NCBI GenBank assembly: GCA_037893245.1
Contig: JBAIAA010000013.1
Span: 496,001-560,000, forward strand
DNA length: 64,000 nucleotides
Source: Crossaster papposus
Lineage: Eukaryota > Echinodermata > Asteroidea > Velatida > Solasteridae
Reading direction: 5' to 3'
Position 1 is the first letter of the stretch. Every line of letters begins with the position of its first letter. The notes under the pieces are model-generated. The model was not told the DNA's origin and did no database searches. It saw only the letters and a list, made by a program, of their open reading frames with translations. Position numbers and translations under genes: made by a program. Shown piece by piece: positions 8,984 to 58,551 of the stretch.

Positions 8984-9381
8984 TAGCAGAGCGAGGTTTC
9001 GATCCTTGTACCTCTGGGTTATGGGCCCAGCACGCTTCAACTGCGCCACTATGCCTCATGTAAATTTAGAAAATGCAAACAAAATGAAAGCAGACATTTT
9101 AAAAACATTATACAATATTTATTAAATGTGAATAGCAGTGAAGCAAAAATACCTAGTTAGCAAAGCGAGGTTTTGGTCCTTGGACCTCCGGGCTATGGGC
9201 CCATCACGCTCCCGCTGCACTACTCTGCGAAACTATTTTTAATGAAAATGAAATCCCTATCAAATACAAAATTATCCTGAGCAGACCGAGGTTGTGATCA
9301 TCCGAACTCTCGGTTACTGACCAAGAAAGTGTCTACTTTGTCACTCCGAGTCGAGTACCTCATGTCATACCAAAAACTTGT

Positions 9382-9453
9382 TAGCAGAGCGAGGTTTCGA
9401 TCCTCGGACCTCTGGGTTATGGGCCCAGCACGCTTCAACTGCGCCACTATGCC
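9382..9453 (-). tRNA. tRNA-iMet-like, subfamily A1, anticodon CAT (representative)
   Basis: Exactly 72 nt, the length of animal initiator tRNA without CCA. Acceptor GGCATAG pairs with CTCTGCT with one mismatch (5:68), and the discriminator is A73. D-stem is GCGC/GCGT. The anticodon arm CTGGG-CCCATAA-CCCAG has the three G:C pairs and C33 typical of animal initiators. T-arm CGAGG-ATCGAAA-CCTCG is perfect with A54, and the B box GGATCGAAACC is intact. The D-loop AGTTGAA lacks G18, which weakens both the A box and the elbow contact. A T5 Pol III terminator lies at 9372-9376, six bases past the 3' end. About 40 copies in the window share this form. Transcription is plausible; service as a working initiator is uncertain. 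Confidence 0.65.
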
Positions 9454-9676
9454 TCATGTAAATTTAGAAAATGCAAACAAAATGAAAGCAGACATTCTAA
9501 AAACATTCTACAATATTTATTAAATGTGAATAGCAGTGAAGCAAAAATACTTCGTTAGCAAAGCGAGGTTTTGGTCCTCGGACCTCTGTGTTATGGGCCC
9601 ATCACGCTCCCGCTGCACTACTCTGCGTAACTATTTTTAATGAAAATGAAATCCCTATCAAATACAAAATTATCCT

Positions 9677-9748
9677 GAGCAGACCGAGGTTGTGATCATC
9701 CGAACTCTCGGTTACTGACCAAGAAAGGGTCTACTTTGTCATTCTGAG
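9677..9748 (-). pseudogene. iMet-derived block, subfamily C (degenerate)
   Basis: It aligns without gaps to the full 72-nt initiator tRNA. The anticodon stem CTTGG/CCGAG still pairs, with loop TCAGTAA instead of CCCATAA. The T-arm (GGATG-ATCACAA-CCTCG) and acceptor keep only part of their pairs, and the A-box segment (TGACAAAGTAG) is poor. A T4 run at 9666-9669 follows the 3' end. This third block is the oldest-looking part of every monomer and is unlikely to be a functional tRNA gene. Confidence 0.6.
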
Positions 9749-9782
9749 TCGAGTACTTCAAGTCATACCAAAAACTTGTTAG

Positions 9783-9854
9783 CAGCAGAACGAGGTTTTG
9801 ATCCTCGGCACTCTGGGTTATAGGCCCAGCAAGCTTCCACTTCGCCACCATGCC
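9783..9854 (-). tRNA. tRNA-iMet-like body with anticodon TAT, subfamily A2 (representative)
   Basis: The body is initiator-like, with anticodon stem CTGGG/CCCAG and C33, but the loop is CCTATAA, giving anticodon TAT (an Ile anticodon) instead of CAT. The change is seen in every A2 copy I read. Most A2 copies have the canonical D-loop AGTGGAA and hence the best A box in the array (TGGCGCAGTGG); this copy has one base changed there. The B box is GGATCAAAACC (G57 to A), base 73 is G, and the 3' acceptor strand begins TTCTGCT, giving several G:T pairs. T5 terminator at 9770-9774. Probably a tRNA pseudogene; the 19-bp minisatellites arose inside A2 copies. Confidence 0.55.
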
Positions 9855-10760
9855 TCATGTAAATTTAGAAAAACAACAAACAAAATAAAAGCAGACATTC
9901 TAAAAACATTCTAAAATAATTATTAAATTTGAATAACAGTGAAGCAAAAATACCTCTTTAGCAGGGCGAGGTTTCGGTCCTCGGGCCTCTGGGTTATGGG
10001 CCCATCACGCTTCCCACTGCACCACTCTGCGTAACTATTTGTAATGAAAATGAAATCACTTTCAAGGAAATAATTATCCTGAGCAGACCGAGGTTGTGGT
10101 CAACCAAACTCTCGGGTACTGACCAAGAAAGTGTCTACTTTGTCACTCCGAGTCGAGTACCTCATGTCATACCAAAAACTTGTTAGCAGAGCGAGGTTTC
10201 GATCTTCGGACCTCTGGGTTATGGGCCCAGCACGCTTCAACTGCGCCACTATGCCTCATGTAAATTTAGAAAATGCAAACAAAATGAAAGCAGACATTCT
10301 AAAAACATTCTACAATATTTATTAAATGTGAATAGCAGTGAAGCAAAAATACCTCGATAGCAAAGCGAGGTTTTGGTCCTCGGACCTCTGTGTTATGGGC
10401 CCATCACGCTCCCGCTGCACTACTCTGCGTAACTATTTTTAATGAAAATGAAATCCCTATCAAATACAAAATTATCCTGAGCAGACCGAGGTTGTGATCA
10501 TCCGAACTCTCGGTTACTGACCAAGAAAGGGTGTACTTTGTCACTCTGAGTCGAGTACTTCAAGTCATACCAAAAACTTATTAGCAGCAGAACGAGGTTT
10601 TGATCCTCGGCACTCTGGGTTATAGGCCCAGCAAGCTTCCACTGCGCCACCATGCCTCATGTAAATTTAGAAAAACAACAAACAAAATAAAAGCAGACAT
10701 TCTAAAATGATTCTAAAATATTTATTAAATTTGAATAACAGTGAAGTAAAAATACCTCTT

Positions 10761-10832
10761 TAGCAGAGCGAGGTTTCGGTCCTCGGGCCTCTGGGTTATG
10801 GGCCCATCACGCTCCCACTGCACCACTCTGCG
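10761..10832 (-). tRNA. tRNA-iMet-like, subfamily B2, anticodon CAT (representative)
   Basis: Acceptor CGCAGAG/CTCTGCT pairs except at 1:72; discriminator A73. A box TGGTGCAGTGGG fits the Pol III consensus. The loop is CCCATAA, though base pair 27:43 is A:G. T-arm CGAGG-ACCGAAA-CCTCG has T55 changed to C in an otherwise good B box. T5 terminator at 10748-10752. Many B2 copies have one extra base in the D-loop (for example 9959-10031, 73 nt). The Ngaro element sits at the 3' end of a B2 copy. Confidence 0.6.
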
Positions 10833-12761
10833 TAACTATTTGTAATGAAAATGAAATCACTTTCAAGGAAATAATTATCCTGAGCAGACCGAGGTTGTGG
10901 TCAACCAAACTCTCGGCTACTGACCAAGAAAGTGTCTACTTTGTCACTCCGAGTCGAGTACCTCATGTCATACCAAAAACTTGTTAGCAGAGCGAGGTTT
11001 CGATCCTCGGACCTCTGGGTTATGGGCCCCGCACGCTTCAACTGCGCCACTATGCCTCATGTAAATTTTGAAAATGCAAACAAAATGAAAGCAGACATTC
11101 TAAAAACATTCTACAATATTTATTAAATGTGAATAGCAGTGAAGCAAAAATACTTCGTTAGCAAAGCGAGGTTTTGGTCCTCGGACCTCTGTGTTATGGG
11201 CCCATCACGCTCCCGCTGCACTACTCTGCGTAACTATTTTTAATGAAAATGAAATCCCTATCAAATACAAAATTATCCTGAGCAGACCGAGGTTGTGATC
11301 ATCCGAACTCTCGGTTACTGACCAAGAAAGGGTCTACTTTGTCACTCTGAGTCGAGTACTTCAAGTCATACCAAAAACTTGTTAGCAGCAGAACGAGGTT
11401 TTGATCCTCGGCACTCTGGGTTATAGGCCCAGCAAGCTTCCACTGCGCCACCATGCCTCATGTAAATTTAGAAAAACAACAAACAAAATAAAAGCAGACA
11501 TTCTAAAAACATTCTAAAATAATTTTTAAATTTGAATAACAGTGAAGCAAAAATACCTCTTTAGCAGGGCGAGGTTTCGGTCCTCGGGCCTCTGGGTTAT
11601 GGGCCCATCACGCTTCCCACTGCACCACTCTGCGTAACTATTTGTAATGAAAATGAAATCACTTTCAAGGAAATAATTATCCTGAGCAGACCGAGGTTGT
11701 GGTCAACCAAACTCTCGGGTACTGACCAAGAAAGTGTCTACTTTGTCACTCCGAGTCGAGTACCTCATGTCATACCAAAAACTTGTTAGCAGAGCGAGGT
11801 TTCGATCTTCGGACCTCTGGGTTATGGGCCCAGCACGCTTCAACTGCGCCACTATGCCTCATGTAAATTTAGAAAATGCAAACAAAATGAAAGCAGACAT
11901 TCTAAAAACATTCTACAATATTTATTAAATGTGAATAGCAGTGAAGCAAAAATACCTCGTTAGCAAAGCGAGGTTTTGGTCCTCGGACCTCTGTGTTATG
12001 GGCCCATCACGCTCCCGCTGCACTACTCTGCGTAACTATTTTTAATGAAAATGAAATCCCTATCAAATACAAAATTATCCTGAGCAGACCGAGGTTGTGA
12101 TCATCCGAACTCTCGGTTACTGACCAAGAAAGGGTGTACTTTGTCACTCTGAGTCGAGTACTTCAAGTCATACCAAAAACTTATTAGCAGCAGAACGAGG
12201 TTTTGATCCTCGGCACTCTGGGTTATAGGCCCAGCAAGCTTTCACTGCGCCACCATGCCTCATGTAAATTTAGAAAAACAACAAACAAAATAAAAGCAGA
12301 CATTCTAAAAACATTCTAAAATATTTATTAAATTTGAATAACAGTGAAGTAAAAATACCTCTTTAGCAGAGCGAGGTTTCGGTCCTCGGGCCTCTGGGTT
12401 ATGGGCCCATCACGCTCCCACTGCACCACTCTGCGTAACTATTTGTAATGAAAATGAAATCACTTTCAAGGAAATAATTATCCTGAGCAGACCGAGGTTG
12501 TGGTCAACCAAACTCTCGGCTACTGACCAAGAAAGTGTCTACTTTGTCACTCCGAGTCGAGTACCTCATGTCATACCAAAAACTTGTTAGCAGAGCGAGG
12601 TTTCGATCCTCGGACCTCTGGGTTATGGGCCCCGCACGCTTCAACTGCGCCACTATGCCTCATGTAAATTTTGAAAATGCAAACAAAATTAAAACAGACA
12701 TTTTAAAAACATTCTACAATATTTATTAAATGTGAATAGCAGTGAAGCAAAAATACCTAGT

Positions 12762-12833
12762 TAGCAAAGCGAGGTTTTGGTCCTCGGACCTCTGGGTTAT
12801 GGGCCCATCACGCTCCCGCTGCACTACTCTGCG
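12762..12833 (-). tRNA. tRNA-iMet-like, subfamily B1, anticodon CAT (representative)
   Basis: Acceptor CGCAGAG/CTTTGCT (1:72 mismatch, one G:T), D-arm GTGC-AGCGGGA-GCGT, anticodon loop CCCATAA with 27:43 mismatched, T-arm CGAGG-ACCAAAA-CCTCG. The B box is weakened at positions 55 and 57. T5 terminator at 12749-12753. It is the least canonical of the CAT-bearing subfamilies and is probably a pseudogene. Confidence 0.5.
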
Positions 12834-15800
12834 TAACTATTTTTAATGAAAATGAAATCCGTATCAAATACAAAATTATCCTGAGCAGACCGAGGTTGTG
12901 ATCATCCGAACTCTCGGTTACTGACCAAGAAAGGGTCTACTTTGTCACTCTGAGTCGAGTACTTCAAGTCATACCAAAAACTTGTTAGCAGCAGAACGAG
13001 GTTTTGATCCTCGGCACTCTGGGTTATAGGCCCAGCACGCTTCAACTGCGCCACCATGCCTCATGTAAATTTAGAAAAACAACACACAAAATAAAAGCAG
13101 ACATTCTAAAAACATTCTCAAATATTTATTAAATGTTAATAGCAGTGAAGCAAAAATACCTCGTTAGCAAAGCGAGGTTTTGGTCCTCGCACCTCTGGGT
13201 TATGGGCCCATCACGCTCCCGCTGCACTACTCTGCGTAACTATTTTTAATGAAAATGAAATCCCTATCAAATACAAAATTATCCTGAGCAGACCGAGGTT
13301 GTGATCATCCGAACTCTCGGTTACTGACCAAGAAAGGGTCTACTTTGTCACTCTGAGTCGAGTACTTCAAGTCATACCAAAAACTTGTTAGCAGCAGAAC
13401 AAGGTTTTGATCCTCGGCACTCTGTGGGTTATAGGCCCAGCAAATGCAAACAAAATGAAAGCAGACATTCTAAAAACATTCTACAATATTTATTAAATGT
13501 GAATAGCAGTGAAGCAAAAATACCTCGTTAGCAAAGCGAGGTTTTGGTCCTCGGACCTCTGGGTTATGGGCCTATCACGCTCCCGCTGCACTACTCTGCG
13601 TAACTATTTTTAATGAAAATGAAATCCGTATCAAATACACAATTATCCTGAGCAGACCGAGGTTGTGATCATCCGAACTCTCGGTTACTGACCAAGAAAG
13701 GGTCTACTTTGTTACTCTGAGTCGAGTACTTCAAGTCATACCAAAAACTTATTAGCAGCAGAACGAGGTTTTGATCCTCGGCACTCTGGGTTATAGGCCC
13801 AGCAAGCTTCCACTGCACCACCATGCCTCATGTAAATTTAGAAAAACAACAAACAAAATAAAAGCAGACATTCTAAAAACATTCTAAAATAATTATTAAA
13901 TTTGAATAACAGTGAAGCAAAAATACCTCTTTAGCAGAGCGAGGTTTCGGTCCTCGGGCCTCTGGGTTATGGGCCCATCACGCTTCCCACTGCACCACTC
14001 TGCGTAACTATTTGTAATGAAAATGAAATCACTTTCAAGGAAATAATTATCCTGAGCAGACCGAGGTTGTGGTCAACCAAACTCTCGGGTACTGACCAAG
14101 AAAGTGTCTACTTTGTCACTCCGAGTCAAGTACCTCATGTCATACCAAAAACTTGTTAGCAGAGCGAGGTTTCGATCCTCGGACCTCTGCGTTATGGGCC
14201 CAGCACGCTTCAACTGCGTCACTATGCCTCATGTAAATTTAGAAAATGCAAACAAAATGAAAGCAGACATTCTAAAAACATTATACAATATTTATTAAAT
14301 GTGAATGGCACTGAAGCAAAAATACCTAGTTAGCAAAGCGAGGTATTGGTCCTCGGACCTCTGGGCTATGGGCCCATCACGCTCCCGCTGCACTACTCTG
14401 CGTAACTATTTTTAATGAAAATGAAATCCCTATCAAATACAAAATTATCCTGAGCAGACCGAGGTTGTGATCATCCGAACTCTCGGTTACTGACCAAGAA
14501 AGGGTCTACTTTGTCACTCTGAGTCGAGTACTTCAAGTCATACCAAAAACTTATTAGCAGCAGAACGAGGTTTTGATCCTCGGCACTCTGGGTTATAGGC
14601 CCAGCAAGCTTCCACTGCGCCACCATGCCTCATGTAAATTTAGAAAAACAACAAACAAAATAAAAGCAGACATTCTAAAAACATTCTAAAATAATTATTA
14701 AATTTGAATAACAGTGAAGCAAAAATACCTCTTTAGCAGAGCGAGGTTTCGGTCCTCGGGCCTCTGGGTTATGGGCCCATCACGCTTCCCACTGCACCAC
14801 TCTGCGTAACTATTTGTAATGAAAATGAAATCACTTTCAAGGAAATAATTATCCTGAGCAGACCGAGGTTGTGGTCAACCAAACTCTCGGGTACTGACCA
14901 AGAAAGTGTCTACTTTGTCACTCCGAGTCAAGTACCTCATGTCATACCAAAAACTTGTTAGCAGAGCGAGGTTTCGATCCTCGGACCTCTGGGTTATGGG
15001 CCCAGCACGCTTCAACTGCGTCACTATGCCTCATGTAAATTTAGAAAATGCAAACAAAATGAAAGCAGACATTCTAAAAACATTATACAATATTTATTAA
15101 ATGTGAATAGCAGTGAAGCAAAAATACCTAGTTAGCAAAGCGAGGTATTGGTCCTCGGACCTCTGGGCTATGGGCCCATCACGCTCCCGCTGCACTACTC
15201 TGCGTAACTATTTTTAATGAAAATGAAATCCCTATCAAATACAAAATTATCCTGAGCAGACCGAGGTTGTGATCATCCGAACTCTCGGTTACTGACCAAG
15301 AAAGTGTCTACTTTGTCACTCCGAGTCAAGTACCTCATGTCATACCAAAAACTTGTTAGCAGAGCGAGGTTTCGATCCTCGGACCTCTGGGTTATGGGCC
15401 CAGCACGCTTCAACTGCGTCACTATGCCTCATGTAAATTTAGAAAATGCAAACAAAATTAAAGCAGACATTCTAAAAACATTATACAATATTTATTAAAT
15501 GTGAATAGCAGTGAAGCAAAAATACCTAGTTAGCAAAGCGAGGTTTTGGTCCTCGGACCTCTGGGTTATGGGCCCATCACGCTCCCGCTGCACTACTCTG
15601 CGTAACTATTTTTAATGAAAATGAAATCCCTATCAAATACAAAATTATCCTGAGCAGACCGAGGTTGTGATCATCCGAACTCTCGGTTACTGACCAAGAA
15701 AGGGTCTACTTTGTCACTCTGAGTCGAGTACTTCAAGTCATACCAAAAACTTGTTAGCAGCAGAACAAGGTTTTGATCCTCGGCACTCTGTGGGTTATAG

Positions 15801-18800
15801 GCCCAGCAAGCTTCCACTGCGCCACCATGCCTCATGTAAATTTAGAAAAACAACAAACAAAATAAAAGCAGACATTCTAAAAACATTCTAAAATATTTAT
15901 TAAATTTGAATAACAGTGAAGTAAAAATACCTCTTTAGCAGAGCGAGGTTTCGGTCCTCGGGCCTCTGGGTTATGGGCCCATCACGCTCCCACTGCACCA
16001 CTCTGCGTAACTATTTGTAATGAAAATGAAATCACTTTCAAGGAAATAATTATCCTGAGCAGACCGAGGTTGTGGTCAACCAAACTCTCGGCTACTGACC
16101 AAGAAAGTGTCTACTTTGTCACTCCGAGTCGAGTACCTCATGTCATACCAACAACTTGTTAGCAGAGCGAGGTTTCGATCCTCGGACCTCTGGGTTATGG
16201 GCCGAGCACACTTCAACTGCGCCACTATGCCTCATGTAAATTTAGAAAATGCAAACAAAATGAAAGCAGACATTCTAAAAACATTCTACAATATTTATTA
16301 AATGTGAATAGCAGTGAAGCAAAAATACCTCGTTAGCAAAGCGAGGTTTTGGTCCTCGGACCTCTGGGTTATGGGCCCATCACGCTCCCGCTGCACTACT
16401 CTGCGTAACTATTGTTAATGAAAATAAAATCCGTATCAAATACAAAATTATCCTGAGCAGACCGAGGTTGTGATCATCCGAACTCTCGGTTACTGACCAA
16501 TAAAGGGTCTACTTTGTCACTCTGAGTCGAGTACATCAAGTCATACCAAAAACTTGTTAGCAGCAGAACGAGGTTTTGATCCTCGGCACTCTGGGTTATA
16601 GGCCCAGCACGCTTCAACTGCGCCACCATGCCTCATGTAAATTTAGAAAAACAACACACAAAATAAAAGCAGACATTCTAAAAACATTCTCAAATATTTA
16701 TTAAATGTTAATAGCAGTGAAGCAAAAATACCTCGTTAGCAAAGCGAGGTTTTGGTCCTCGGACCTCTGGGTTATGGGCCCATCACGCTCCCGCTGCACT
16801 ACTCTGCGTAACTATTTTGTTAATGAAAATGAAATCCCTATCAAATACAAAATTATCCTGAGCAGACCGAGGTTGTGATCATCCGAACTCTCGGTTACTC
16901 ACCAAGAAAGGGTCTACTTTGTCACTCTGAGTCAAGTACTTCAAGTCATACCAAAAACTTGTTAGCAGCAGAACAAGGTTTTGATCCTCGGCACTCTGTG
17001 GGTTATAGGCCCAGCAAGCTTCCACTGCGCCACCATGCCTCATGTAAATTTAGAAAAACAACAAACAAAATAAAAGCAGACATTCTAAAAACATTCTAAA
17101 ATAATTATTAAATTTGAATAACAGTGAAGCAAAAATACCTCTTTAGCAGAGCGAGGTTTCGGTTCTCGGGCCTCTGGGTTATGGGCCCATCACGCTTCCC
17201 ACTGCACCACTCTGCGTAACTATTTGTAATGAAAATGAAATCACTTTCAAGGAAATAATTATCCTGAGCAGACCGAGGTTGTGGTCAACCAAACTCTCGG
17301 CTACTGACCAAGAAAGTGTCTACTTTGTCACTCCGAGTCGAGTACCTCATGTCATACCAAAAACTTGTTAGCAGAGCGAGGTTTCGATCCTCGGACCTCT
17401 GGGTTATGGGCCGAGCACGCTTCAACTGCGCCACTATGCCTCATGTAAATTTAGAAAATGCAAACAAAATGAAAGCAGACATTCTAAAAACATTCTACAA
17501 TATTTATTAAATGTGAATAGCAGTGAAGCAAAAATACCTCGTTAGCAAAGCGAGGTTTTGGTCCTCGGACCTCTGGGTTATGGGCCCATCACGTCCCCGC
17601 TGCACTACTCTGCGTAACTATTTTTAATGAAAATGAAATCCGTATCAAATACAAAATTATCCTGAGCAGACCGAGGTTGTGATCATCCGAACTCTCGGTT
17701 ACTGACCAAGAAAGGGTCTACTTTGTCACTCTGAGTCGAGTACTTCAAGTCATACCAAAAACTTCTTAGCAGCAGAACGAGGTTTTGATCCTCGGCACTC
17801 TGGGTTATAGGCCCAGCAAGCTTCCACTGCGCCACCATGCCTCATGTAAATTTAGAAAAACAACAAACAAAATAAAAGCAGACATTCTAAAAACATTCTA
17901 AAATAATTATTAAATTTGAATAACAGTGAAGCAAAAATACCTCTTTAGCAGAGCGAGGTTTCGGTCCTCGGGCCTCTGGGTTATGGGCCCATCACGCTTC
18001 CCACTGCACCACTCTGCGTAACTATTTGTAATGAAAATGAAATCACTTTCAAGGAAATAATTATCCTGAGCAGACCGAGGTTGTGGTCAACCAAACTCTC
18101 GGGTACTGACCAAGAAAGTGTCTACTTTGTCACTCCGAGTCAAGTACCTCATGTCATACCAAAAACTTGTTAGCAGAGCGAGGTTTCGATCCTCGGACCT
18201 CTGGGTTATGGGCCCAGCACGCTTCAACTGCGTCACTATGCCTCATGTAAATTTAGAAAATGCAAACAAAATGAAAGCAGACATTCTAAAAACATTATAC
18301 AATATTTATTAAATGTGAATAGCAGTGAAGCAAAAATACCTAGTTAGCAAAGCGAGGTTTTGGTCCTCGGACCTCTGGGCCCATCACCCTCCCGCTGCAC
18401 TACTCTGCGTAACTATTTTTAATGAAAATGAAATCCCTATCAAATACAAAATTATCCTGAGCAGACCGAGGTTGTGATCATCCGAACTCTCGGTTACTGA
18501 CCAAGAAAGGGTCTACTTTGTCACTCTGAGTCGAGTACTTCAAGTCATACCAAAAACTTATTAGCAGCAGAACGATGTTTTGATCCTCGGCACTCTGGGT
18601 TATAGGCCCAGCACGCTTCAACTGCGCCACCATGCCTCATGTAAATTTAGAAAAACAACACACAAAATAAAAGCAGACATTCTAAAAACATTCTAAAATA
18701 ATTATTAAATTTGAATAACAGTGAAGCAAAAATACCTCTTTAGCAGAGCGAGGTTTCGGTCCTCGGGCCTCTGGGTTATGGGCCCATCACGCTTCCCACT

Positions 18801-18965
18801 GCACCACTCTGCGTAACTATTTGTAATGAAAATGAAATCACTTTCAAGGAAATAATTATCCTGAGCAGACCGAGGTTGTGGTCAACCAAACTCTCGGGTA
18901 CTGACCAAGAAAGTGTCTACTTTGTCACTCCGAGTCGAGTACCTCATGTCATACCAAAAACTTGT

Positions 18966-19037
18966 TAGCAGAGCGGGGTTTCGATCCTCGGACCTCTGGG
19001 TTATGGGCCCATCACGCTCCCGCTGCACTACTCTGCG
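18966..19037 (-). pseudogene. Hybrid tRNA copy (B1 5' half, A1 3' half)
   Basis: Read on the minus strand, the 5' half is B1-like (acceptor CGCAGAG, D-loop AGCGGGA) and the 3' half A1-like (loop ATCGAAA). The switch lies in the shared anticodon segment. Reciprocal-type hybrids, A1 5' half with B2 3' half, occur at 22176-22247, 26760-26831, 29741-29812, 34324-34395 and 38107-38178. Total length stays 72 nt in all, so exchange was in register. Confidence 0.75.
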
Positions 19038-42741: not shown

Positions 42742-42769
42742 TAAATGCGCAAATGTTAGCCACCGTGTT

Positions 42770-44218: not shown

Positions 44219-44247
44219 TTTCCAAGGTATTGGTTGTGAGAATGAAT

Positions 44248-46087: not shown

Positions 46088-46729
46088 TTACACAATGTCC
46101 TTGCAGTCGCGAGCCATGTGTCCCACCTTTTGGCATCGAAAACAAGCGCCTCTGTTCTTAGGCGTTGAGGAAAAGGCTAACGACGAACTGCGTGAACCCC
46201 AGCCCCGTTGGCCCTGCCGGGAATTCCATCTGGACCGGTAGCCCTGTCTCAAGGGTCTAAAAACACCGCCTTGCGGCCCCATTCGCGCCTTAGTGTCGGC
46301 TGGAGGGGCGTTTAAACCTAAATGCTTACGGGCAAATCTTAGCCGTTTGTCTGAATCTTCACCCGTTACTGATTTATAGATATACATGGCTATACCTTGC
46401 ACCTTAGATTCTATGTGTTTTGTGCACTCAGTGAGCAGATTGACATACATCTGCTTTTCTTTGATGTCGTCGGTGGACAGCGGCGTGAATTCCTCCACAT
46501 ACTTTCTGAATATGGACATCACATATGCCACATTTCGGTCGTAACCGGTCTCGGTACAAGCCTTTAGAAGTTCCAGACGTCTTGGTTTGTGGACCTCCAA
46601 AGCGGATTTCGCCTGCATTTTATATAAACAAACAAACAAACGCCGAACGTGCCACTTGCAGGCCCAATGTGGATGGATAATACATTTTATCTGTCTAAAC
46701 TTAATCGGACAATTGCAGAGCGTATTCAC
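46088..46729 (-). CDS. Ngaro part: Gag with CCHC zinc knuckle
   Basis: Ends in a single CCHC knuckle, CFRCQKVGHMARDC, preceded by an Arg/Gly-rich RNA-binding stretch (GYRSRWNSRQGQRGWGSRSS). The N-terminal part is helical and polar. It would package element RNA. A further polar open stretch at 50116-50631 (-) may be an upstream part of the same gene. Confidence 0.65.
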   Translation of the reverse strand: MNTLCNCPIKFRQIKCIIHPHWACKWHVRRLFVCLYKMQAKSALEVHKPRRLELLKACTETGYDRNVAYVMSIFRKYVEEFTPLSTDDIKEKQMYVNLLTECTKHIESKVQGIAMYIYKSVTGEDSDKRLRFARKHLGLNAPPADTKARMGPQGGVFRPLRQGYRSRWNSRQGQRGWGSRSSSLAFSSTPKNRGACFRCQKVGHMARDCKDIV

Positions 46730-47794
46730 CGCTCTTTACCAAAAATGCTTCAAGTGTAAACTCTTTGCTAAACACTATCTTGGCTAGCCCCAGTGCTCAG
46801 ACGAGAGCTTATCCGGCCTGCATTAAACCCTATGGTAAAAGAGATACGTATACCCAAACTGAAACGACTTTCAAAAAGGGTTGAGGGGGGGGGGGGGGCA
46901 AACCACATTTATTGCGTTGCCTGCACTGTGGCGATATTGAGCAGTACTGACCTTTTAAGGTTACTTACATGATGTTTTAAATGTACATGTATAGATGTAT
47001 CTGTCTATACAATCGTATTTTCCTTATATTACAAATGCCCCTGTTAATTTATTGTTAATATAAATGACAAGCCCACAAATTCATGTATTTTTTATGAATC
47101 TATGAAATGCACGAGGCTCGGCCCTTTCGAGCCCAAATATCAACTCAATTTAAAGCAGGTGCAGCTCTATGTTAAATTTCATGTTGTGGGTGGGGTCGAT
47201 TATGCCGGAGGTAAAATGGTCAAAAGAGTACACTTTGAGCTCGTATTATTGTTGTTAATATTCAGTATCTCCGTTGTGAGTTATAATTGCTGAATCCTCT
47301 TGTGACAAAAATGGCTGTACCCGACCCAGGAATATGATTTTATCCGTAAATACCAGTATAAATCGTTTATACTTATCAGTATGCCGTTCTAAATGATTTC
47401 TCTGCCAACTTCAGGGATTTTTCTTCCAACCATAACCCATTCTGGGCAAAGCCCAAGTATACTTTGAGGTCCAACCTCTGATCCAAAATTCAAAAGTTCA
47501 AATATAGGGTCTCGTCTCCTTGGCGTCTAAAACTGGGCTCAATTAATAAAGCTACCTTTAGGAATTTAATTGGGACCCAGAACCTTATTCAGGCCCAGCC
47601 TCGGTTCTAAATTTCGGTATACCATCACCTATTATAAATAAATTAAAACATCGCTAAAAATCAACCGTGCGTGCGCACGCACACATAATTACACATGTAC
47701 ATGTATTATGTACCTAAAATGCACTCACTTACAGCGCTGTAAATGTCACCAAATGCGGACCCAAAGGGCATAAACCAGCCAACCTTAATAAATG

Positions 47795-49445
47795 TTTTTA
47801 AGGCACGTCCTCGGATTTACCAAATTGATCAGATTTTTAACGGGAACACAGCCTATTAAATTTGGAGGTCCAACCTTTAAATCGAAATTTAAATTTGTTT
47901 CATCACATTTCTTTCGGGGGAGCCCCGTCCATTTTTACCTCGAGGTCCCAACCTCAGCCTCTGAACCTAATTTGGTTAAAAGGATTTATTTAGGAAACTC
48001 TACCCCATTGCTCCCTCGAGGCCCCACCTCGGCATCTAAACTTACTTTAGTTAAAAGGCTTTATTTCTGGGGACCCAGCCCCTTGGCACTGAGGACCCAC
48101 CTCGGCATCTAAACTTAGCTTGGCTAAAAGGCTTTCTTTCTGGGGACCCAGCCCCGTGGCACTTCGAGGCCCCGCCTCGACATCTGAACTCAATTTAGTC
48201 AGAACAATTTATTTCTGGGAACCCAGCCCCGTGGCACTCCAATGTCCCACCTCGGCATCTAACCTTAATTTGGTCAAATTGACTTCTTTCGGGGGACCCA
48301 GCCCCGTGGCACTACGAGGTCCAACCTCGGAATCCTAACTGAATTTGGTTAACAGGATATCTTTAGAGGGCACAGCCCTTTGTCACCTTGAGGTCCAACC
48401 TCATCATCTGAACTTAATTGGGTTTACAATAATTCTTTCAGGGGACCCAGCCCCTTACCTTATCGAGGTCCAACCTCGGATTCTGAACCCAATTTGGTTA
48501 AAATAATTTATTTCTGGGGACCCAGCCCCATGGCCGTCAAGGTCCAACCTCGGCATAAAACTTTATTCTTGTTCAAAATTATTTATTGTGGGGGACCCTG
48601 CCCCTTGCCACCTTAAGCTCCAACCCCGGCATCTGAACTTAATTTGGTTTACAAGATTTCCTCGGGGGACCCAACCCATTGCCACCTGAGGTCCAACCTC
48701 GGAATCTGAACTTAATCTGGTTTACAAGATTTCTTCGGGGGACCCAGCCCATTGCCACCTGAGGTCCAACCTCGTAATCTAAACTTAATCTGGTTTACAA
48801 GATTTCTTCGGGGGACCCAGCCCATTGCTACCTGAGGTCCAACCTCGTAATCTGAACTTAATCTGGTTTACAAGATTTCTTCGGGGGACCCAGCCCATTG
48901 CCACCTGAGGTCCAACCTCGGAATCTGAACTTAAACTGGTTCACAAGATTTCTTCGGGGGACCCAGCCCATTACCACCTGAGGTCCAACCTCGGAATCTG
49001 CACTTAATCTGGTTTACAAGATTTCTTCGGGGGACCCAGCCCCTTGCCACCTGAGGTCCAACCTCGGAATCTGAACTTAATCTGGTTTACAAGATTTCTT
49101 TGTGGGACCCAGCCCATTGCCACCTGAGGTCCAACCTCGTAATCTGAACTTAATCTGGCTTACACGATTTCTTCGGGGGACCCAGCCCATTGCCACCTGA
49201 GGTCCAACCTCGGAATCTGAAATTTAACTGGTTTACAAGATTTCTTTGGGGGACCCAGCCCATTGCCGCCTGAGGTCCAACCTCGGAATCTGAACTTAAT
49301 TTGGTTAAAAGTATTTCTTTCTAGGGACCCAACCCCGTAGCACTTTGCGGACCAACCTCGGTATCTAATCTTAATTTGTTAAAATGATTTCTTTTGTGGA
49401 ACCCTGCCCCTTGTCACCTCTAGGTCGAACTTCGGAGTCTGAACT
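47795..49445. repeat. 73-bp tandem repeat inside the Ngaro leader (about 22 copies)
   Basis: A 73-bp unit containing GGGGGACCCAGCCC and GAGGTCCAACCTCGG recurs about 22 times. It is most uniform from about 48640 to 49310 and frays at both edges. GAGGT-CCA-ACCTC makes a small hairpin in every unit. The block lies on the leader side of Gag, between the zinc-knuckle part and the 50116-50631 open stretch. Confidence 0.85.
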
Positions 49446-50115
49446 TACAAGGTTTGAAAAACTGAATTGAATCTGGTTAACCAAAAGGCTACCCCTTTTC
49501 AAATGAGGCTCAACCTCTGAATATAAACCTAACTTTAACTCCTCTTAAATCTTATTGGGTAATGCTGACCCTGTTCATCTTGAGGCCCGACTTTGAACCA
49601 AAACAACTTTCAGTGGATTTTGACCGGGTATTGTGTCATTCAAAAATAATTTCGCCAAATACGATTGCCCATCTCTGTTTAACCTCGAGGTCCAACCTCA
49701 GATCTAACCTTTTAATTCACGTTCCTGTGGGTTCAAGACCGAACTCGTATCAAAATAATATTTCCCAAATTACGTGCCCACTACCAATCAAACTACCAGT
49801 TTGAAATTTGGCTACAGATACTTTTATGTAGTTTCTCCAGACCCTTCCCCATAATCTCCACACATTTTCTCAGGGTTATAGACTCGAGATCAAAAGGACT
49901 CAAGATAAAAATCTTAGCTCAAAGAATTTTCTTTGTCCCAACTGCCAATAATGTTAAAAGTATTACGGCCAGCATCCAAACTCTGCCGGGGAATGTACGA
50001 TCTCCATAACATATCGGGTCTATAATTTGAAAAGGCTTTACTTGCGATTGTCGCATAAATACCAATATTTAAACCGCTGCCTTATTTACCATTTATAACG
50101 CAATAAGACATATAA

Positions 50116-50631
50116 CTAATTTATAAATACTTCATTCACCTGTGAGGCCGAGGTGGCTGCATCCCCCTTGGCAACACTAGTATTGGCAGGAGCCGACTTC
50201 TTGGCGGCGATGTCAGCAGTAGACGCACTCGGAGTCAGGCCAGTGGTGCCCGAGCCTTGCGGAGCCTGTCTGTCGAGCCCCTTGTCCTGGTCTTCCTGCT
50301 GCTGGGTTTTACGCTGTTTGGGCAGCCTGCCGAGAAACTGTTCATCTAGCGGGCCGGCCTCCACACGAGCCATCAGCCGCTCGAAATTCCGCCGCTGACC
50401 TCCGTTTGGAGCCAGGGTCAATAGATGGGCGATCCACTCCTTGTCTAGCCCTAACAACTGGTCCAAGTCTTCCCAGCCATCCTGGCTCAGGTTCTCAAAG
50501 TACTTGTTGGAGATTTTAAAGGCAGCACAAAGCCCTTTAAAAGCGGGGCTTGCCTGAGTCTCCATGCCCTCGTAGGCATCGGGCTTCTCCTGAAAAGGGA
50601 AAGGTGTTTGACCATTGAAATACGAACACAA
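50116..50631 (-). CDS. Possible N-terminal part of Ngaro Gag
   Basis: 171 codons without a recognised domain: acidic and helical at first (WEDLDQLLGLDKEWIAHLL), then Gln-rich and Ala/Ser-rich. It sits upstream of the zinc-knuckle Gag on the same strand and inside the element. A donor-like CAG|GTGAAT occurs near its 3' end, so splicing across the tandem-repeat block is possible; introns are known in some DIRS-order elements. It might instead be an unrelated accessory frame. Confidence 0.45.
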   Translation of the reverse strand: MCSYFNGQTPFPFQEKPDAYEGMETQASPAFKGLCAAFKISNKYFENLSQDGWEDLDQLLGLDKEWIAHLLTLAPNGGQRRNFERLMARVEAGPLDEQFLGRLPKQRKTQQQEDQDKGLDRQAPQGSGTTGLTPSASTADIAAKKSAPANTSVAKGDAATSASQVNEVFIN

Positions 50632-50639
50632 AAAGGGCG

Positions 50640-51919
50640 AAAATGAAATGGCGAAGGCGCCAATTGATGTGTGTTCAAAAATATCACAAATTTATAGAGC
50701 CACTTAAAAGTATGCACTGAGAAAACCACATGTTTCGTAATCTAGGCTTGGAAAGCTGTATATAAATAAGGGCCAAATAGGGTCGAAATCAAACTTCGCC
50801 CGCCTATAGGCTATAGGCCTAAATGAGATTATTAAAACAAAATATAAATAATTGCCAGCTATTGTATGTGGAATCTTAAAACAACCAAACATCAGATATT
50901 GGCCAGGATAAAAGCAACCCGCTATTTTCTGCAAAGGAGGATATAATACCATCCACTATCTACTAACCCGCTGCACATGCCATTGTGTTCCCGCGCCTAT
51001 TTTATTTGAAATCTATGAGTACGATATTTAAATCAAAAATATTCTTGCGAAAATATAAATGATGAGGCTATCTTACCTCCACAATATCATACGTGATATC
51101 CATGCCCGGCGTTCAAAACATATACCGGAGATAGGACAACTGTTGTGGCCAACGCACACAAGTGGGTAAATGCCGTCAATAGGGGACGGGGCATTGTCCG
51201 ACCGTCTTCCCTCTTTTGTTTGTACTCTAACGTTTTCGGATGATCGCCATAGGATTTGCACACGAGTCTGAATCGGGGACCTTTGCGGAATAGGGGACCC
51301 CATTGTTCCCTTTGTCATACGTCCCCTATTTCAATCAAAAACAAACGCAGCCGGGACTAAGTGTATAGGGATCACACTCTGCGGCTACGCCCTATCCGTT
51401 GGAATGTGTCGAATGCCGAACGGATCACTCGAGCGCGACCGTGCCTGCGCACATGACAGCACCGACTTCACGGCTCGTCGACTCACAATAAAAACGAACG
51501 CCCGAGCGTGTCAGTGACGTAACTCGGGAATCGTACCACCTATACCAGCACTGTACTGCGCTATAAATAACGAATACGGCAAATGTTGAGTGTCTTGACG
51601 CTTGCGACAGCTCTAAAACTAGAATAAGAACTAACAAGAATGATCGAATTATACATATCAACCGTACCTTTTGGTAGGAACCTACAACATTGAATTTACC
51701 AAGAAAATTCGCCAAGTCATTTGGCAGGACAAGCTGATCTACTCCAATTTCCATTCAATAAAAGGAACAGTCTTACCAGCTATTTGTTTCCAACAGGTCC
51801 ACTCCAACATGCCGACAAACTACACATTACTCTCCCGATCCCATTTCCCCAAAATATCATAAAGCCCACAGGGAATCACAAATATCGCCAGCCAGGCACA
51901 AGAGCACCCGCTGGCGTGG
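50640..51919. other. Ngaro leader region
   Basis: Between the possible Gag N-terminus and the 65-bp end repeat; presumably promoter and untranslated leader, because the coding strand is minus and transcription must begin near this end. I see no clear TATA box and no domain in the short open frames. Confidence 0.45.
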
Positions 51920-51984
51920 CGCTAGAATCACGAATGGCTTGATGTTTCTTCTGGCGCCCTCATTGTCTTGAGCGGTACAAATAG

Positions 51985-54900
51985 CAGAGCGAGGTTTCGG
52001 TCCTCGGGCCTTTGGGTTATGGGCCCATCACGCTTCCCACTGCACCACTCTGCGTAACTATTTGTAATGAAAATGAAATCACTTTCAAGGAAATAATTAT
52101 CCTGAGCAGACCGAGGTTGTGGTCAACCAAACTCTCGGGTACTGACCAAGAAAGTGTCTACTTTGTCACTCCGAGTCGAGTACCTCATGTCATACCAAAA
52201 ACTTGTTAGCAGAGCGAGGTTTCGATCCTCGGACCTCTGGGTTATGGGCCCAGCACGCTTCAACTGCGCCACTATGCCTCATGTAAATTTAGAAAATGCA
52301 AACAAAATGAAAGCAGACATTCTAAAAACATTCTACAATATTTATTAAATGTGAATAGCAGTGAAGCAAAAATACCTAGTTAGCAAAGCGAGGTTTTGGT
52401 CCTCGGACCTCTGGGCTATGGGCCCATCACGCTCCCGCTGCACTACTCTGCGTAACTATTTTTAATGAAAATGAAATCCCTATCAAATACAAAATTATCC
52501 TGAGCAGACCGAGGTTGTGATCATCCGAACTCTCGGTTACTGACCAAGAAAGGGTCTACTTTGTCACTCTGAGTCGAGTACTTCAAGTCATAGCAAAAAC
52601 TTATTAGCAGCAGAACGAGGTTTTGATCCTCGGCACTCTGGGTTATAGGCCCAGCAAGCTTCTACTGCGCCACCATGCCTCATGTAAATTTAGAAAAACA
52701 ACAAACAAAATAAAAGCAGACATTCTAAAAACATTCTAAAATATTTATTAAATTTGAATAACAGTGAAGCAAAAATACCTCTTTAGCAGAGCGAGGTTTC
52801 GGTCCTCGGGCCTCTGGGTTATGGGCCCATCACGCTCCCACTGCACCACTCTGCGTAACTATTTGTAATGAAAATTAAATCACTTTCAAGGAAATAATTA
52901 TCCTGAGCAGACCGAGGTTGTGGTCAGCCAAACTCTCGGGTACTGACCAAGAAAGTTTCTACTTTGTCACTCCGAGTCGAGTACCTCATGTCATACCAAA
53001 AACTTGTTAGCAGAGCGAGGTTTCGATCCTCGGACCTCTGGGTTATGGGCCCAGCACGCTTCAACTGCGCCACTATGCCTCATGTAAATTTAGAAAATGC
53101 AAACAAAATGAAAGCAGACATTCTAAAAACATTCTACAATATTTATTAAATGTGAATAGCAGTGAAGCAAAAATACCTAGTTAGCAAAGCGAGGTTTTGG
53201 TCCTCGGACCTCTGGGCTATGGGCCCATCACGCTCCCGCTGCACTACTCTGCGTAACTATTTTTAATGAAAATAAAATCCCTATCAAATACAAAATTATC
53301 CTGAGCAGACCGAGGTTGTGATCATCCGAACTCTCGGTTACTGACCAAGAAAGGGTCTACTTTGTCACTCTGAGTCGAGTACTTCAAGTCATACCAAAAA
53401 CTTATTAGCAGCAGAACGAGGTTTTGATCCTCGGCACTCTGGGTTATAGGCCCAGCAAGCTTCTACTGCGCCACCATGCCTCATGTAAAATTAGAAAAAC
53501 AACAAACAAAATAAAAGCAGACATTCTAAAAACATTCTAAAATATTTATTAAATTTGAATAACAGTGAAGCAAAAATACCTCTTTAGCAGAGCGAGGTTT
53601 CGGTCCTCGGGCCTCTGGGTTATGGGCCCATCACGCTCCCACTGCACCTCTCTGCGTAACTATTTTTAATGAAAATGAAATCACTTTCAAGGAAATAATT
53701 ATCCTGAGCAGACCGAGGTTGTGGTCAACCAAACTCTCGGGTACTGACCAAGAAAGTGTCTACTTTGTCACTCCGAGTCGAGTACCTCATGTCATACCAA
53801 AAACTTGTTAGCAGAGCGAGGTTTCGATCCACGGGCCTCTGGGTTATGGACCCAGCACGCTTCAACTGCGCCACTATGCCTCATGTAAATTTAGAAAATG
53901 CAAACAAAATGAAAGCAGACATTCTAAAAACATTCTACAATATTTATTAAATGTGAATAGCAGTGAAGCAAAAATACCTCGTTAGCAAAGCGAGGTTTTG
54001 GTCCTCGGACCTCTGGGCTATGGGCCCATCACGCTCCCGCTGCACTACTCTGCGTAACTATTTTTAATGAAAATGAAATCCCTATCAAATACAAAATTAT
54101 CCTGAGCAGACCAAGGTTGTGATCATCCGAACTCTCGGTTACTGACCAAGAAAGGGTCTACTTTGTTACTTTGAGTCGAGTACTTCAAGTCATACCAAAA
54201 ACTTATTAGCAGCAGAACGAGGTTTTGATCCTCGGCACTCTGGGTTATAGGCCCAGCAAGCTTCTACTGCGCCACCATGCCTCATGTAAATTTAGAAAAA
54301 CAACAAACGAAATAAAAGCAGACATTCTAAAAACATTCTAAAATATTTCTTAAATTTGAATAACAGTGAATCAAAAATACCTCTTTAGCAGAGCGAGGTT
54401 TCGGTCCTCGGGCCTCTGGGTTATGGGCCCATCACGCTCCCACTGCACCACTCTGCGTAACTATTTGTAATGAAAATGAAATCACTTTCAAGGAAATAAT
54501 TATCCTGAGCAGACAGAGGTTGTGGTCAACCAAACTCTCGGGTACTGACCAAGAAAGTGTCTACTTTGTCACTCCGAGTCGAGTACCTCATGTCATACCA
54601 AAAACTTGTTAGCAGAGCGAGGTTTCGATCCTCGGACCTCTGGGTTATGGGCCCAGCACGCTTCAACTGCGCCACTATGTCTCATGTAAATGTAGAAAAT
54701 GCAAACAAAATGAAAGCAGACATTCTAAAAACATTCTACAATATTTATTAAATGTGAATAGCAGTGAAGCAAAAATATCTCGTTAGCAAAGCGAGGTTTT
54801 GGACCTCGGACCTCTGGGCTATGGGCCCATCACGCTCCCGCTGCACTACTCTGCGTAACTATTTTTAATGAAAATGAAATCCCTATCAAATACAAAATTA

Positions 54901-57900
54901 TCCTGAGCAGACCGAGGTTGTGATCATCCGAACTCTAGGTTACTGACCAAGAAAGGGTCTACTTTGTCACTCTGAGTCGAGTACTTCAAGTCATACCAAA
55001 AACTTATTAGCAGCAGAACGAGGTTTTGATCCTCGGCACTCTGGGTTATAGGCCCAGCAAGCTTCCACTGCGCCACCATGCCTCATGTAAATTTAGAAAA
55101 ACAACAAACAAAATAAAAGCAGACATTCTAAAAACATTATCAAATAATTATTAAACTTGAATAACAGTGAAGCAAAAATACCTCTTTAGCAGAGCGAGGT
55201 TTCTGTCCTCGGGCCTCTGGGTTATGGGCCCATCACGCTTCCCACTGCACCACTCTGCGTAACTATTTGTAATGAAAATGAAATCACTTTCAAGGAAATA
55301 ATTATCCTGAGCAGACCGAGGTTGTGGTCAACCAAACTCTCGGGTACTGACCAAGAAAGTGTCTACTTTGTCACTTCGAGTCGAGTACCTCATGTCATAC
55401 CAAAAAATTGTTAGCAGCAGAACGAGGTTTGGATCCTCGGCACTCTGGGTTATAGGCCCAGCAAGCTTCCACTGCGCCACCATGCTTCCACTGCGCCACC
55501 ATGCTTCCACTGCGCCACCATGCTTCCACTGCGCCACCATGCTTCCACTGCGCCACCATGCTTCCACTGCGCCACCATGCTTCCACTGCGCCACCATGCT
55601 TCCACTGCGCCACCATGCTTCCACTGCGCCACCATGCTTCCACTGCGCCACCATGCTTCCACTGCGCCACCATGCTTCCACTGCGCCACCATGCTTCCAC
55701 TGCGCCACCATGCTTCCACTGCGCCACCATGCTTCCACTGCGCCACCATGCTTCCACTGCGCCACCATGCTTCCACTGCGCCACCATGCTTCCACTGCGC
55801 CACCATGCTTCCACTGCGCCACCATGCTTCCACTGCGCCACCATGCTTCCACTGCGCCACCATGCTTCCACTGCGCCACCATGCTTCCACTGCGCCACCA
55901 TGCTTCCACTGCGCCACCATGCTTCCACTGCGCCACCATGCTTCCACTGCGCCACCATGCTTCCACTGCGCCACCATGCTTCCACTGCGCCACCATGCTT
56001 CCACTGCGCCACCATGCTTCCACTGCGCCACCATGCTTCCACTGCGCCACCATGCTTCCACTGCGCCACCATGCTTCCACTGCGCCACCATGCTTCCACT
56101 GCGCCACCATGCTTCCACTGCGCCACCATGCTTCCACTGCGCCACCATGCTTCCACTGCGCCCCCATGCTTCCACTGCGCCCCCATGCTTCCACTGCGCC
56201 ACCATGCTTCCACTGCGCCACCATGCTTCCACTGCGCCACCATGCTTCCACTGCGCCACCATGCTTCCACTGCGCCACCATGCTTCCACTGCGCCACCAT
56301 GCTTCCACTGCGCCACCATGCTTCCACTGCGCCACCATGCTTCCACTGCGCCACCATGCTTCCACTGCGCCACCATGCTTCCACTGCGCCACCATGCTTC
56401 CACTGCGCCACCATGCTTCCACTGCGCCACCATGCTTCCACTGCGCCACCATGCTTCCACTGCGCCACCATGCTTCCACTGCGCCACCATGCTTCCACTG
56501 CGCCACCATGCTTCCACTGCGCCACCATGCTTCCACTGCGCCACCATGCTTCCACTGCGCCACCATGCTTCCACTGCGCCACCATGCTTCCACTGCGCCA
56601 CCATGCTTCCACTGCGCCACCATGCTTCCACTGCGCCACCATGCTTCCACTGCGCCACCATGCTTCCACTGCGCCACCATGCTTCCACTGCGCCACCATG
56701 CTTCCACTGCGCCACCATGCTTCCACTGCGCCACCATGCTTCCACTGCGCCACCATGCTTCCACTGCGCCACCATGCTTCCACTGCGCCACCATGCTTCC
56801 ACTGCGCCACCATGCTTCCACTGCGCCACCATGCTTCCACTGCGCCACCATGCTTCCACTGCGCCACCATGCTTCCACTGCGCCACCATGCTTCCACTGC
56901 GCCACCATGCTTCCACTGCGCCACCATGCTTCCACTGCGCCACCATGCTTCCACTGCGCCACCATGCCTCATGTAAATTTTGAAAAACAACAAACAAAAT
57001 AAAAGCAGGCATTCTAAAAACATTCTAAAATAATTATTAAATTTGAATAACAGTGAAGCAAAAATACCTCTTTAGCAGAGCGAGGTTTCGGTCCTCGGGC
57101 CTCTGGGTTATGGGCCCATCACGCTTCCCACTGCACCACTCTGCGTAACTATTTGTAATGAAAATGAAATCACTTTCAAGGAAATAATTATCCTGAGCAG
57201 ACCGAGGTTGTGGTCAACCAAACTCTCGGGTACTGACCAAGAAAGTGTCTACTTTGTCACTCCGAGTCGAGTACCTCATGTCATACCAAAAACTTGTTAG
57301 CAGAGCGAGGTTTCGATCCTCGGACCTCTGGGTTATGGGCCCAGCACGCTTCAACTGCGCCACTATGCATCATGTAAATTTAGAAAATGCAAACAAAATG
57401 AAAGCAGACATTCTAAAAACATTCTACAATATTTATTAAATGTGAATAGCAGTGAAGCAAAAATATCTCGTTAGCAAAGCGAGATTTTGGTCCTCGGACC
57501 TCTGGGCTATGGGCCCATCACGCTCCCGCTGCACTACTCTGCGTAACTATTTTTAATGAAAATGAAATCCCTATCAAATACAAAATTATCCTGAGCAGAC
57601 CGAGGTTGTGATCATCCGAACTCTCGGTTACTGACCAAGAAAGGGTCTACTTTGTCACTCTGAGTCGAGTACTTCAAGTCATACCAAAAACTTATTAGCA
57701 GCAGAACGAGGTTTTGATCCTCGGCACTCTGGGTTATAGGCCCAGAAAGCTTCCACTGCGCCACCATGCCTCATGTAAATTTAGAAAAACAACAAACAAA
57801 ATAAAAGCAGACATTCTAAAAACATTCTAAAATAATTATTAAATTTGAATAACAGTGAAGCAAAAATACCTCTTTAGCAGAGCGAGGTTTCGGTCCTCGG

Positions 57901-58551
57901 GCCTCTGGGTTATGGGCCCATCACGCTTCCCACTGCACCACTCTGCGTAACTATTTGTAATGAAAATGAAATCACTTTCAAGGAAATAATTATCCTGAGC
58001 AGACCGAGGTTGTGGTCAACCAAACTCTCGGGTACTGACCAAGAAAGTGTCTACTTTGTCACTTCGAGTCGAGTACCTCATGTCATACCAAAAAATTGTT
58101 AGCAGAGCGAGGTTTCGGTCCTCGGACCTCTGGGTTATGGGCCCAGCACGCTTCAACTGCGCCACTATACCTCATGTAAATTTAGAAAATGCAAACAAAA
58201 TGAAAGCAGACATTCTAAAAACATTCTACAATATTTATTAAATGTGAATAGCAGTGAAGCAAAAATACCTAGTTAGCAAAGCGAGGTTTTGGTCCTCGGA
58301 CCTCTGGGCTATGGGCCCATCACGCTCCCGCTGCACTACTCTGCGTAACAATTTTTAATGAAAATGAAATCCCTATCAAATACAAAATTATCCTGAGCAG
58401 ACCGAGGTTGTGATCATCCGAACTCTCGGTTACTGACCAAGAAAGGGTCTACTTTGTCACTCTGAGTCGAGTACTTCAAGTCATACCAAAAACTTATTAG
58501 CAGCAGAACGAGGTTTTGATCCTCGGCACTCTGGGTTATAGGCCCAGCAAG
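51985..58551 (-). repeat. Initiator-tRNA-derived satellite, segment 2
   Basis: Continuation of segment 1: with the Ngaro element removed, the B2 copy at 40289/51985 is restored. A1 copies start at 52207, 53008, 53809, 54610, 57298 and 58100. From about 51985 to 54000 it matches about 30320-32330 at a constant offset of 21,664 bp, including private variants such as the GGACCC change in the A1 copies at 32145 and 53809. It is interrupted by a 1,501-bp minisatellite expansion and ends in a second one. Confidence 0.92.
55466..56966 (-). repeat. 19-bp minisatellite of the tRNA A-box segment, exactly 79 copies
   Basis: Unit CTTCCACTGCGCCACCATG on the plus strand, i.e. tRNA nucleotides about 3-21 on the minus strand, holding the Pol III A box TGGCGCAGTGG. 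1,501 bases is 79 units with no remainder. Only two units differ (A to C, near 56162 and 56181). Left and right flanks are the 3' part and the 5' flank of one A2 copy, so the expansion is internal to that copy. The unit has no stop codon in any frame and is not a multiple of three, which creates long false reading frames on both strands. Confidence 0.95.

Follow-up and report, generated by a model that had tools for sequence, protein, structure and literature searches.

An iMet-derived satellite in Crossaster papposus and its place among tandem tRNA arrays of the genome

Animal tRNA genes are known mainly in dispersed form or gathered in clusters, often of mixed isotype. A 64,000-nucleotide stretch of the genome of the echinoderm Crossaster papposus (positions 496,001-560,000 of contig C13 in an assembly of 1.02 Gb and 1,841 contigs; "the window" below means this whole stretch) carries a long tandem array of blocks derived from the initiator methionine tRNA (iMet), and an initial annotation made from the letters alone described it as a megasatellite of iMet genes that might affect initiator dosage. 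Does such an array consist of working genes, or is it satellite DNA that has been built from a tRNA? Analysis of the window and of related sequences throughout the assembly indicates that the window is probably a decayed outlier of an iMet satellite family spread through the genome, and that this genome appears to keep four or more tRNA species in tandem arrays like those of ribosomal DNA (rDNA). The blocks in the window are pseudogene-like, and large numbers of perfect iMet copies occur elsewhere.

Structure and decay of the window array

Outside a Ngaro-type retrotransposon and two minisatellite blocks, the satellite amounts to 36,405 bp (31,303 + 3,501 + 1,601) between window positions 8,984 and 58,571. 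Every iMet-derived block lies on the minus strand, and a script set to print plus-strand matches printed none. The repeat unit is about 401 bp long and contains three iMet-derived blocks in the transcription order A, C, B, of which A and B are clear and C is ruined. Among 84 full units, 47 are of a type termed alpha (A block with TAT), 36 are of a type termed beta (A block with CAT) and one is an outlier; the two types alternate for the most part and form a dimer of about 802 bp. Longer duplications within the window reach 6.8 kb at 98.7% identity and include one of 3.3 kb at 99.6%. Long head-to-tail arrays, a non-trivial unit and higher-order repeats identify the array as satellite DNA. The size of about 36 kb in a single orientation, the origin from one isotype, the higher-order layout and the unusual scale that the initial annotation had proposed are thus borne out, as are its three iMet-derived blocks per unit, with the correction that C scores below the Rfam gathering threshold as a tRNA. 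Its array end at 58,551 needs correction, as iMet-derived sequence runs on as a 19-bp minisatellite to 60,906. The left edge of the array (8983/8984) directly follows a CTCTGCTA tRNA end and adjoins unrelated sequence.

Blocks were located with a hidden Markov model (HMM) built from two sequences, which gave 442 matches in the window. Matches that scored below 5 or were limited to the first 32 model positions (minisatellite) were discarded, which left 272 blocks (93 A, 89 B and 90 C); the three types were told apart by a score threshold and by a motif at the 5' end, and at least one block labelled "C" is really an A block cut short. Many tRNA features are retained. An anticodon is present in 180 of the 182 A and B blocks (132 CAT, 48 TAT), C33 is likewise present in 180, and a run of five T (T5) occurs within 30 nt of 176 (88/93 A and 88/89 B). 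Rfam gives 137 tRNA matches at or above the gathering score in the window, and ARAGORN reports 19 genes there (18 Met and 1 Ile). The best block type departs from canonical iMet at positions 1, 5 and 17 in 72-nt numbering. Although Rfam does not score the C block as a tRNA, this block varies less than any other part of the unit within each window-type subfamily, as judged by mean minor-allele frequency.

Pairing defects are shared by all copies. A T.C mismatch at 5:67 is common to all 93 A blocks and mismatches at 1:71 and 26:42 to all 89 B blocks, so that none of the 182 clear blocks has an intact, mismatch-free cloverleaf. The A1:U72 pair, taken here as a mark of a functional gene, is found in two A blocks (2/93, both bordering minisatellites) and in no B block (0/89). 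Compensatory change is absent, with no pair altered on both sides among 54 distinct block sequences, and the share of paired cells among these sequences equals the shuffle mean of 89.9%. Strict forms of both promoter boxes (A and B) occur together in 25 of the 182 blocks, of which 24 are TAT blocks and a single one belongs to the 132 CAT blocks.

Among units, tRNA sites are not less variable than spacers. The alpha and beta consensuses differ at 14/147 tRNA sites and 19/184 spacer sites (p 0.86), which gives a tRNA:spacer rate ratio of 0.92 with a 95% interval of 0.43-1.94; constraint of up to about twofold would still be compatible with this test taken alone. Variable sites within the window number 30/147 in tRNA against 34/182 in spacer for alpha units (p 0.78), and 32/144 against 23/184 for beta units (p 0.025), with tRNA the more variable in beta. 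After removal of alleles that exchange could explain, the counts become 22/147 against 29/182 (alpha, p 0.88) and 24/144 against 21/184 (beta, p 0.20). A wider comparison of 410 units from 19 further window-type stretches gave 30/147 against 29/182 for alpha (p 0.31) and 47/144 against 32/184 for beta (p 0.0017), and here too beta tRNA sites vary more than spacers. The window blocks are pseudogene-like. More than 150 copies with a recognizable cloverleaf, anticodon, C33 and terminator had been proposed; the last three features stand, the cloverleaves can be recognized but always contain mismatches, and the terms "tRNA genes" and "initiator dosage" are not supported for the window. CpG depletion was considered as a sign of methylation and set aside as not telling, since the ratios in array stretches (0.75 and 0.73) are near those of the Ngaro element (0.80) and the right flank (0.75) and below that of the left flank (0.99).

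Recombination has left traces in the array. In each of five units of 176 bp, a hybrid block takes its 5' half from beta A and its 3' half, with the adjoining flank, from beta B; the 3' sequence of one B block is A-like. Unequal exchange therefore happened inside tRNA blocks. The repeated 19-mer of the minisatellite, ATGGTGGCGCAGTGGAAGC, corresponds to positions 4-22 of the alpha A block (the A-box region) and was expanded in place; in tandem form it is absent from the fetched stretches L001-L027. Long open reading frames (ORFs) across the minisatellite were rejected as genes because tandem copies of a 19-mer that lacks stops in all three frames give rise to them automatically.

The iMet family and other tandem tRNAs in the genome

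The window array is not the only one of its kind. Its monomer is matched over the full length, at 97-100% identity, in at least 40 places across 8 contigs, with 40 scored out of 250 candidates, and 13-24 full units occur in each of 19 stretches of 10 kb, which establishes a satellite present in several places. Exact copies of the canonical 72-nt iMet number 1,281 in the same genome (1,240 on the minus strand and 41 on the other), and exact copies of its 5' 34 nt number 2,605 (111 plus and 2,494 minus); reversed-pattern controls gave 0 in both searches. These exact copies overturn a view of the family as dead satellite only. The idea of an iMet gene array, not supported for the window, finds support at the genome level, where the exact copies belong to the same repeat family wherever they were read.

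Contig C146 contains the core of the family. All of the 100 listed plus-strand 5' parts (of 111) lie on it at 4.32-4.43 Mb, as do the first 100 of the 1,240 minus-strand full copies, of which 97 fall within 5.44-5.54 Mb, with 3 more at 4.31 Mb. Two stretches read on this contig, L028 and L029, lie near 4.35 and 4.39 Mb and have 4 and 7 perfect copies, respectively, beside decayed B blocks; these 11 copies score 58.7 bits compared with at most 49.8 in the window, and their flanks and terminators are of the same kind as those of window A blocks. Blind 2-kb samples fell within the array at 5.60, 5.70, 5.85, 6.00, 6.15, 6.30, 6.45 and 6.60 Mb, the sample at 4.45 Mb contained window-type units, and samples at 4.25, 4.60, 5.00, 5.40, 5.435, 6.75 and 6.92 Mb had no block at all. 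Ten of ten blind 450-bp samples at 5.55-6.70 Mb were also in the array. With two stretches picked from matches and not blind (L030 and L031), the array is present at 20/20 places read from 5.47 to 6.70 Mb. The samples place a core array between about 5.44 Mb and a point between 6.70 and 6.75 Mb, a length of about 1.26 Mb, on one strand where sampled.

Core and window-type arrays differ in their content of perfect copies. Ten core stretches (36 kb, two of them chosen at dense matches) contain 189 iMet-like blocks, of which 43 are perfect, 34 have 1-3 differences, 109 have 4-11 and 3 lie beyond; the blind core samples alone give 13 perfect copies per 20.5 kb. No perfect copy occurs among 867 blocks in the 19 window-type 10-kb stretches, where the closest block has 3 differences. 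All fetched loci together provide 59 perfect copies, two of which lie at edges and were left out of the flank check; the 57 with both flanks in view are all followed by T5 within 20 nt, and the 9 nt immediately before them are nearly identical from copy to copy. Core copies combine the canonical 72-nt sequence, a high covariance score and a terminator, as is expected of functional iMet genes. In each of the five C146 loci that were compared, the A blocks (picked by terminator) have the canonical consensus, while the 5' flank consensuses of these loci differ at up to 10/100 sites and the 3' flanks at up to 5/102. In the main core A class (n=72; 27 perfect, 79 differences in all) variation is 1.53% in tRNA compared with 2.1% in flanks (p 0.017), and in an unassigned class of 55, which are probably C blocks, it is 0.63% in the block compared with 2.2% in the flank.

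Tandem organization extends to other tRNA species. A search for elongator Met was intended as a low-copy control and failed as one: it returned 1,792 exact cores, the first 100 of which lie on C112:1,769,897-1,789,771 at a spacing of about 184 bp. A 600-bp piece read there has three identical genes, between which the two spacers differ at 15/108 aligned sites. Exact Lys-CTT cores number 1,271, with the first 100 on C28:248,535-270,061 mostly spaced by 174 bp or multiples, and exact Gly-GCC cores number 186, with 98 of 100 listed on C656:598,482-792,702 mostly at multiples of 141 bp and the other 2 on other contigs. Tandem cores occur for iMet, elongator Met, Lys and Gly, in a manner reminiscent of rDNA or 5S genes, with one isotype per array where arrays were read as sequence (iMet, and 600 bp of elongator Met).

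Mechanism and alternative explanations

Unequal exchange and conversion would homogenize each array, as in rDNA, and traces of such exchange are visible in the hybrid blocks. Window-type arrays would have been seeded from already defective units and would then have drifted as ordinary satellite DNA; as every window copy has the same defects, these most simply predate the spread. By analogy with the tRNA-Ser/Tyr (SYY) cluster of Arabidopsis (PMC12308677), window-type arrays are probably transcriptionally weak or silenced. Core arrays would supply working tRNA, and their canonical consensus could reflect either selection on the whole array or recency. The variation results in the core are mixed, and for that reason we infer this supply of initiator tRNA and do not present it as observed.

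Several results weigh against this interpretation. Blind sampling density extrapolates to about 800 perfect copies in 1.26 Mb compared with 1,281 counted, so that part of the perfect copies may lie elsewhere. Two core A/B classes have no tRNA-flank difference (p 0.84 and 0.63), a small core A class (n=13) is more variable in tRNA than in flanks (5.3% and 2.7%), as is the core B class (n=94; 4.3% and 3.0%), and even the core arrays give no clear sign of selection on individual copies. The other arrays were located from the first 100 matches in each case (of 1,792, 1,271 and 186). The elongator Met sequence that was read spans 600 bp, and Lys and Gly are known from exact cores and their spacing; the Lys and Gly arrays may or may not be pure, as a 174-bp Lys spacing leaves room for a second tRNA, which 141 bp does not. 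A Phe pattern had 0 matches in the genome, although that pattern may be wrong.

If the window were a working initiator-dosage array, with copies transcribed and selectively kept, retention of the anticodon in 180/182 blocks and T5 in 176 would be expected, as would the 137 matches that pass the Rfam threshold. Such an array should not, however, have 0/182 mismatch-free blocks, pairing at the shuffle mean without compensatory change, strict A and B boxes in 1/132 CAT blocks and tRNA sites as variable as spacers or, in beta units, more so. The common mismatches and lack of constraint ruled out initiator dosage in the window as a candidate, and a working array there is highly improbable. A purely selfish satellite, in which the canonical core copies are a recent iMet amplification and the working iMet genes lie elsewhere, fits the weak or absent per-copy constraint in the core, and by our own reckoning 27 perfect copies of 72 with 79 differences are close to the share expected if mutations fall at random on a canonical consensus. 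Tandem spacing of three further tRNA species would not be expected of a satellite that arose by chance from a single tRNA. The A-block consensus, canonical in five C146 loci with differing flank consensuses, also speaks against a purely selfish satellite, and we judge this explanation unlikely.

Inflation of tandem repeats by long-read assembly could be suspected from the almost perfectly uniform 19-bp minisatellites. Against it stand dimers whose halves have diverged, repeats of several orders, duplications of 98-99.6% identity, hybrid blocks and window-type units on 8 contigs, and an artefact of this kind is hardly credible. A tRNA-derived short interspersed element (SINE) or a Helenus-type terminal-repeat retrotransposon in miniature (TRIM), retrotransposed and then tandemized, has a precedent in reported tandem arrays of such an element (PMC10886601). 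The units here are strictly head-to-tail, the dimer has no match in the rest of the window (the extent of that search), and the representative molluscan Helenus was aligned to tRNA-Lys in the same paper; a retrotransposed origin is very unlikely. The explanation that we favour remains that of an outlying, decayed member of a genome-wide iMet family. A broader version of it, held tentatively, is that most tRNA genes of this animal are kept like rRNA genes, with one tandem array per isoacceptor, hundreds to thousands of homogenized copies and pseudogene satellites budding off. The base spacing in that case would be 141-184 bp, which is of nucleosome scale.

Neighbouring elements, known systems and significance

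Coordinates of the satellite, of representative blocks and of inserted elements are collected in Table 1.

Table 1. Features of the window (window coordinates)
Feature	Position	Strand	Remarks
iMet-derived satellite, first stretch	8984..40286	-	~401-bp units, alpha/beta mostly alternating as ~802-bp dimers
iMet-derived satellite, second stretch	51985..55485	-	
iMet-derived satellite, third stretch	56971..58571	-	
Best block type (beta A block, CAT)	9382..9453	-	49.8 bits; 3 substitutions relative to canonical iMet
Example B block, CAT	9556..9627	-	C at position 1, A.G mismatch 26:42, T55 lost
Example C block, degenerate third iMet-derived block	9280..9345	-	below Rfam tRNA threshold
A/B hybrid block	26760..26831	-	join recurs at 22176 (with one base changed), 29741, 34324 and 38107
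19-bp minisatellite, first block	55486..56970	-	76 exact units and 2 variants
19-bp minisatellite, second block	58572..60906	-	122 exact units; adjoins broken retroelement reverse transcriptase
Ngaro-type tyrosine-recombinase retrotransposon	40287..51984	-	split direct repeats, junctions, Pfam matches

The Ngaro-type element has split direct repeats (51920-51984/40555-40619 and 40617-40695/40287-40365) in the A1-B1-A2-B2 arrangement by which such elements are defined (PMC4157794). Pfam matches include ALOG and a zinc-knuckle, and a GDSL match falls under its cut-off; the five ORFs scanned gave no Pfam match to a methyltransferase domain, the feature that separates PAT elements from Ngaro, although the frames of the element are broken. 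The insertion lies exactly at the CTA that ends a B tRNA block, and CTA also occurs at the element's own repeat junctions, so that this short core may act as target homology. A 73-bp minisatellite lies within the element (47907-49447). To the left of the array are a rhodopsin-type seven-transmembrane receptor exon (113-538), an animal-like host gene, an endonuclease-reverse transcriptase long interspersed element (LINE; 4344-7401) between 144-nt inverted repeats (4101-7559, 94%), an arrangement unusual for a LINE, and a diverged eukaryotic small-subunit rRNA fragment (8249-8688, minus strand, 122.9 bits). To the right, a second retroelement (60904-62374) with a zinc-knuckle gag and partial reverse transcriptase is cut off by the 19-bp minisatellite. 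The receptor exon, the iMet sequence and the retroelements all point to an animal host. In protein searches the receptor exon had no match and the retroelement reverse transcriptase had 47. Neither of two patterns searched for was present in viral contigs.

Tandem tRNA repeats have precedents. Entamoeba has tandem arrays that carry tRNA genes and are thought to be homogenized by concerted evolution; its units differ from those here in combining as many as five tRNA genes, in some cases together with 5S RNA, and clear pseudogenes were not seen there (PMC2652664), while the present arrays have one isotype each where read, large pseudogene subfamilies and an animal host. Maize tRNASAT_ZM is also a tRNA satellite, but it is a single array of 91.95 kb on chromosome 4L (PMC10335936), compared with a core of about 1.26 Mb and several isotypes here. 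Huge numbers of clustered tRNA genes are already known in animals: a 74-genome survey reports more than 17,000 tRNA genes and pseudogenes in Nematostella, 89% of them clustered, and tRNA pairs that are mostly same-isotype in drosophilids and mostly of mixed isotype in Nematostella (PMC2888827). Thousand-copy isotype-pure arrays are not described in the passages of that survey used here. The copy-variable tandem repeat at human 1q23.3 carries tRNA genes, as here, but in 7.3-kb units of which they make up less than 6%; conservation between human and mouse extends there to the tRNA genes but not to the remainder (PMC4041453), a contrast that the window array lacks. In Arabidopsis, the SYY cluster consists of tandem tRNA genes that are heterochromatic and silent in most tissues, although it mixes two isotypes, unlike the arrays read here (PMC12308677), and a tRNA-Cys cluster has 0.4-kb tandem units with four genes only (PMC10701932). 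The open-access literature, in the parts consulted, offers such precedents but neither an iMet-only satellite nor one-isotype arrays of more than 1,000 copies, which a genome paper may already mention.

More than 1,000 perfect genes of one isotype would allow tests of how tRNA supply is controlled from hugely redundant genes. The arrays would also show how an essential gene of 72 bp is retained or lost under concerted evolution when copies around it decay, and whether a chromosome domain can be formed by RNA polymerase III (Pol III) genes. Within one genome, the family grades naturally from perfect genes into dead satellite. If most tRNA genes of this animal are indeed kept like rRNA genes, the iMet array would be its main source of initiator tRNA and, at the same time, a very large Pol III/TFIIIC chromatin domain.

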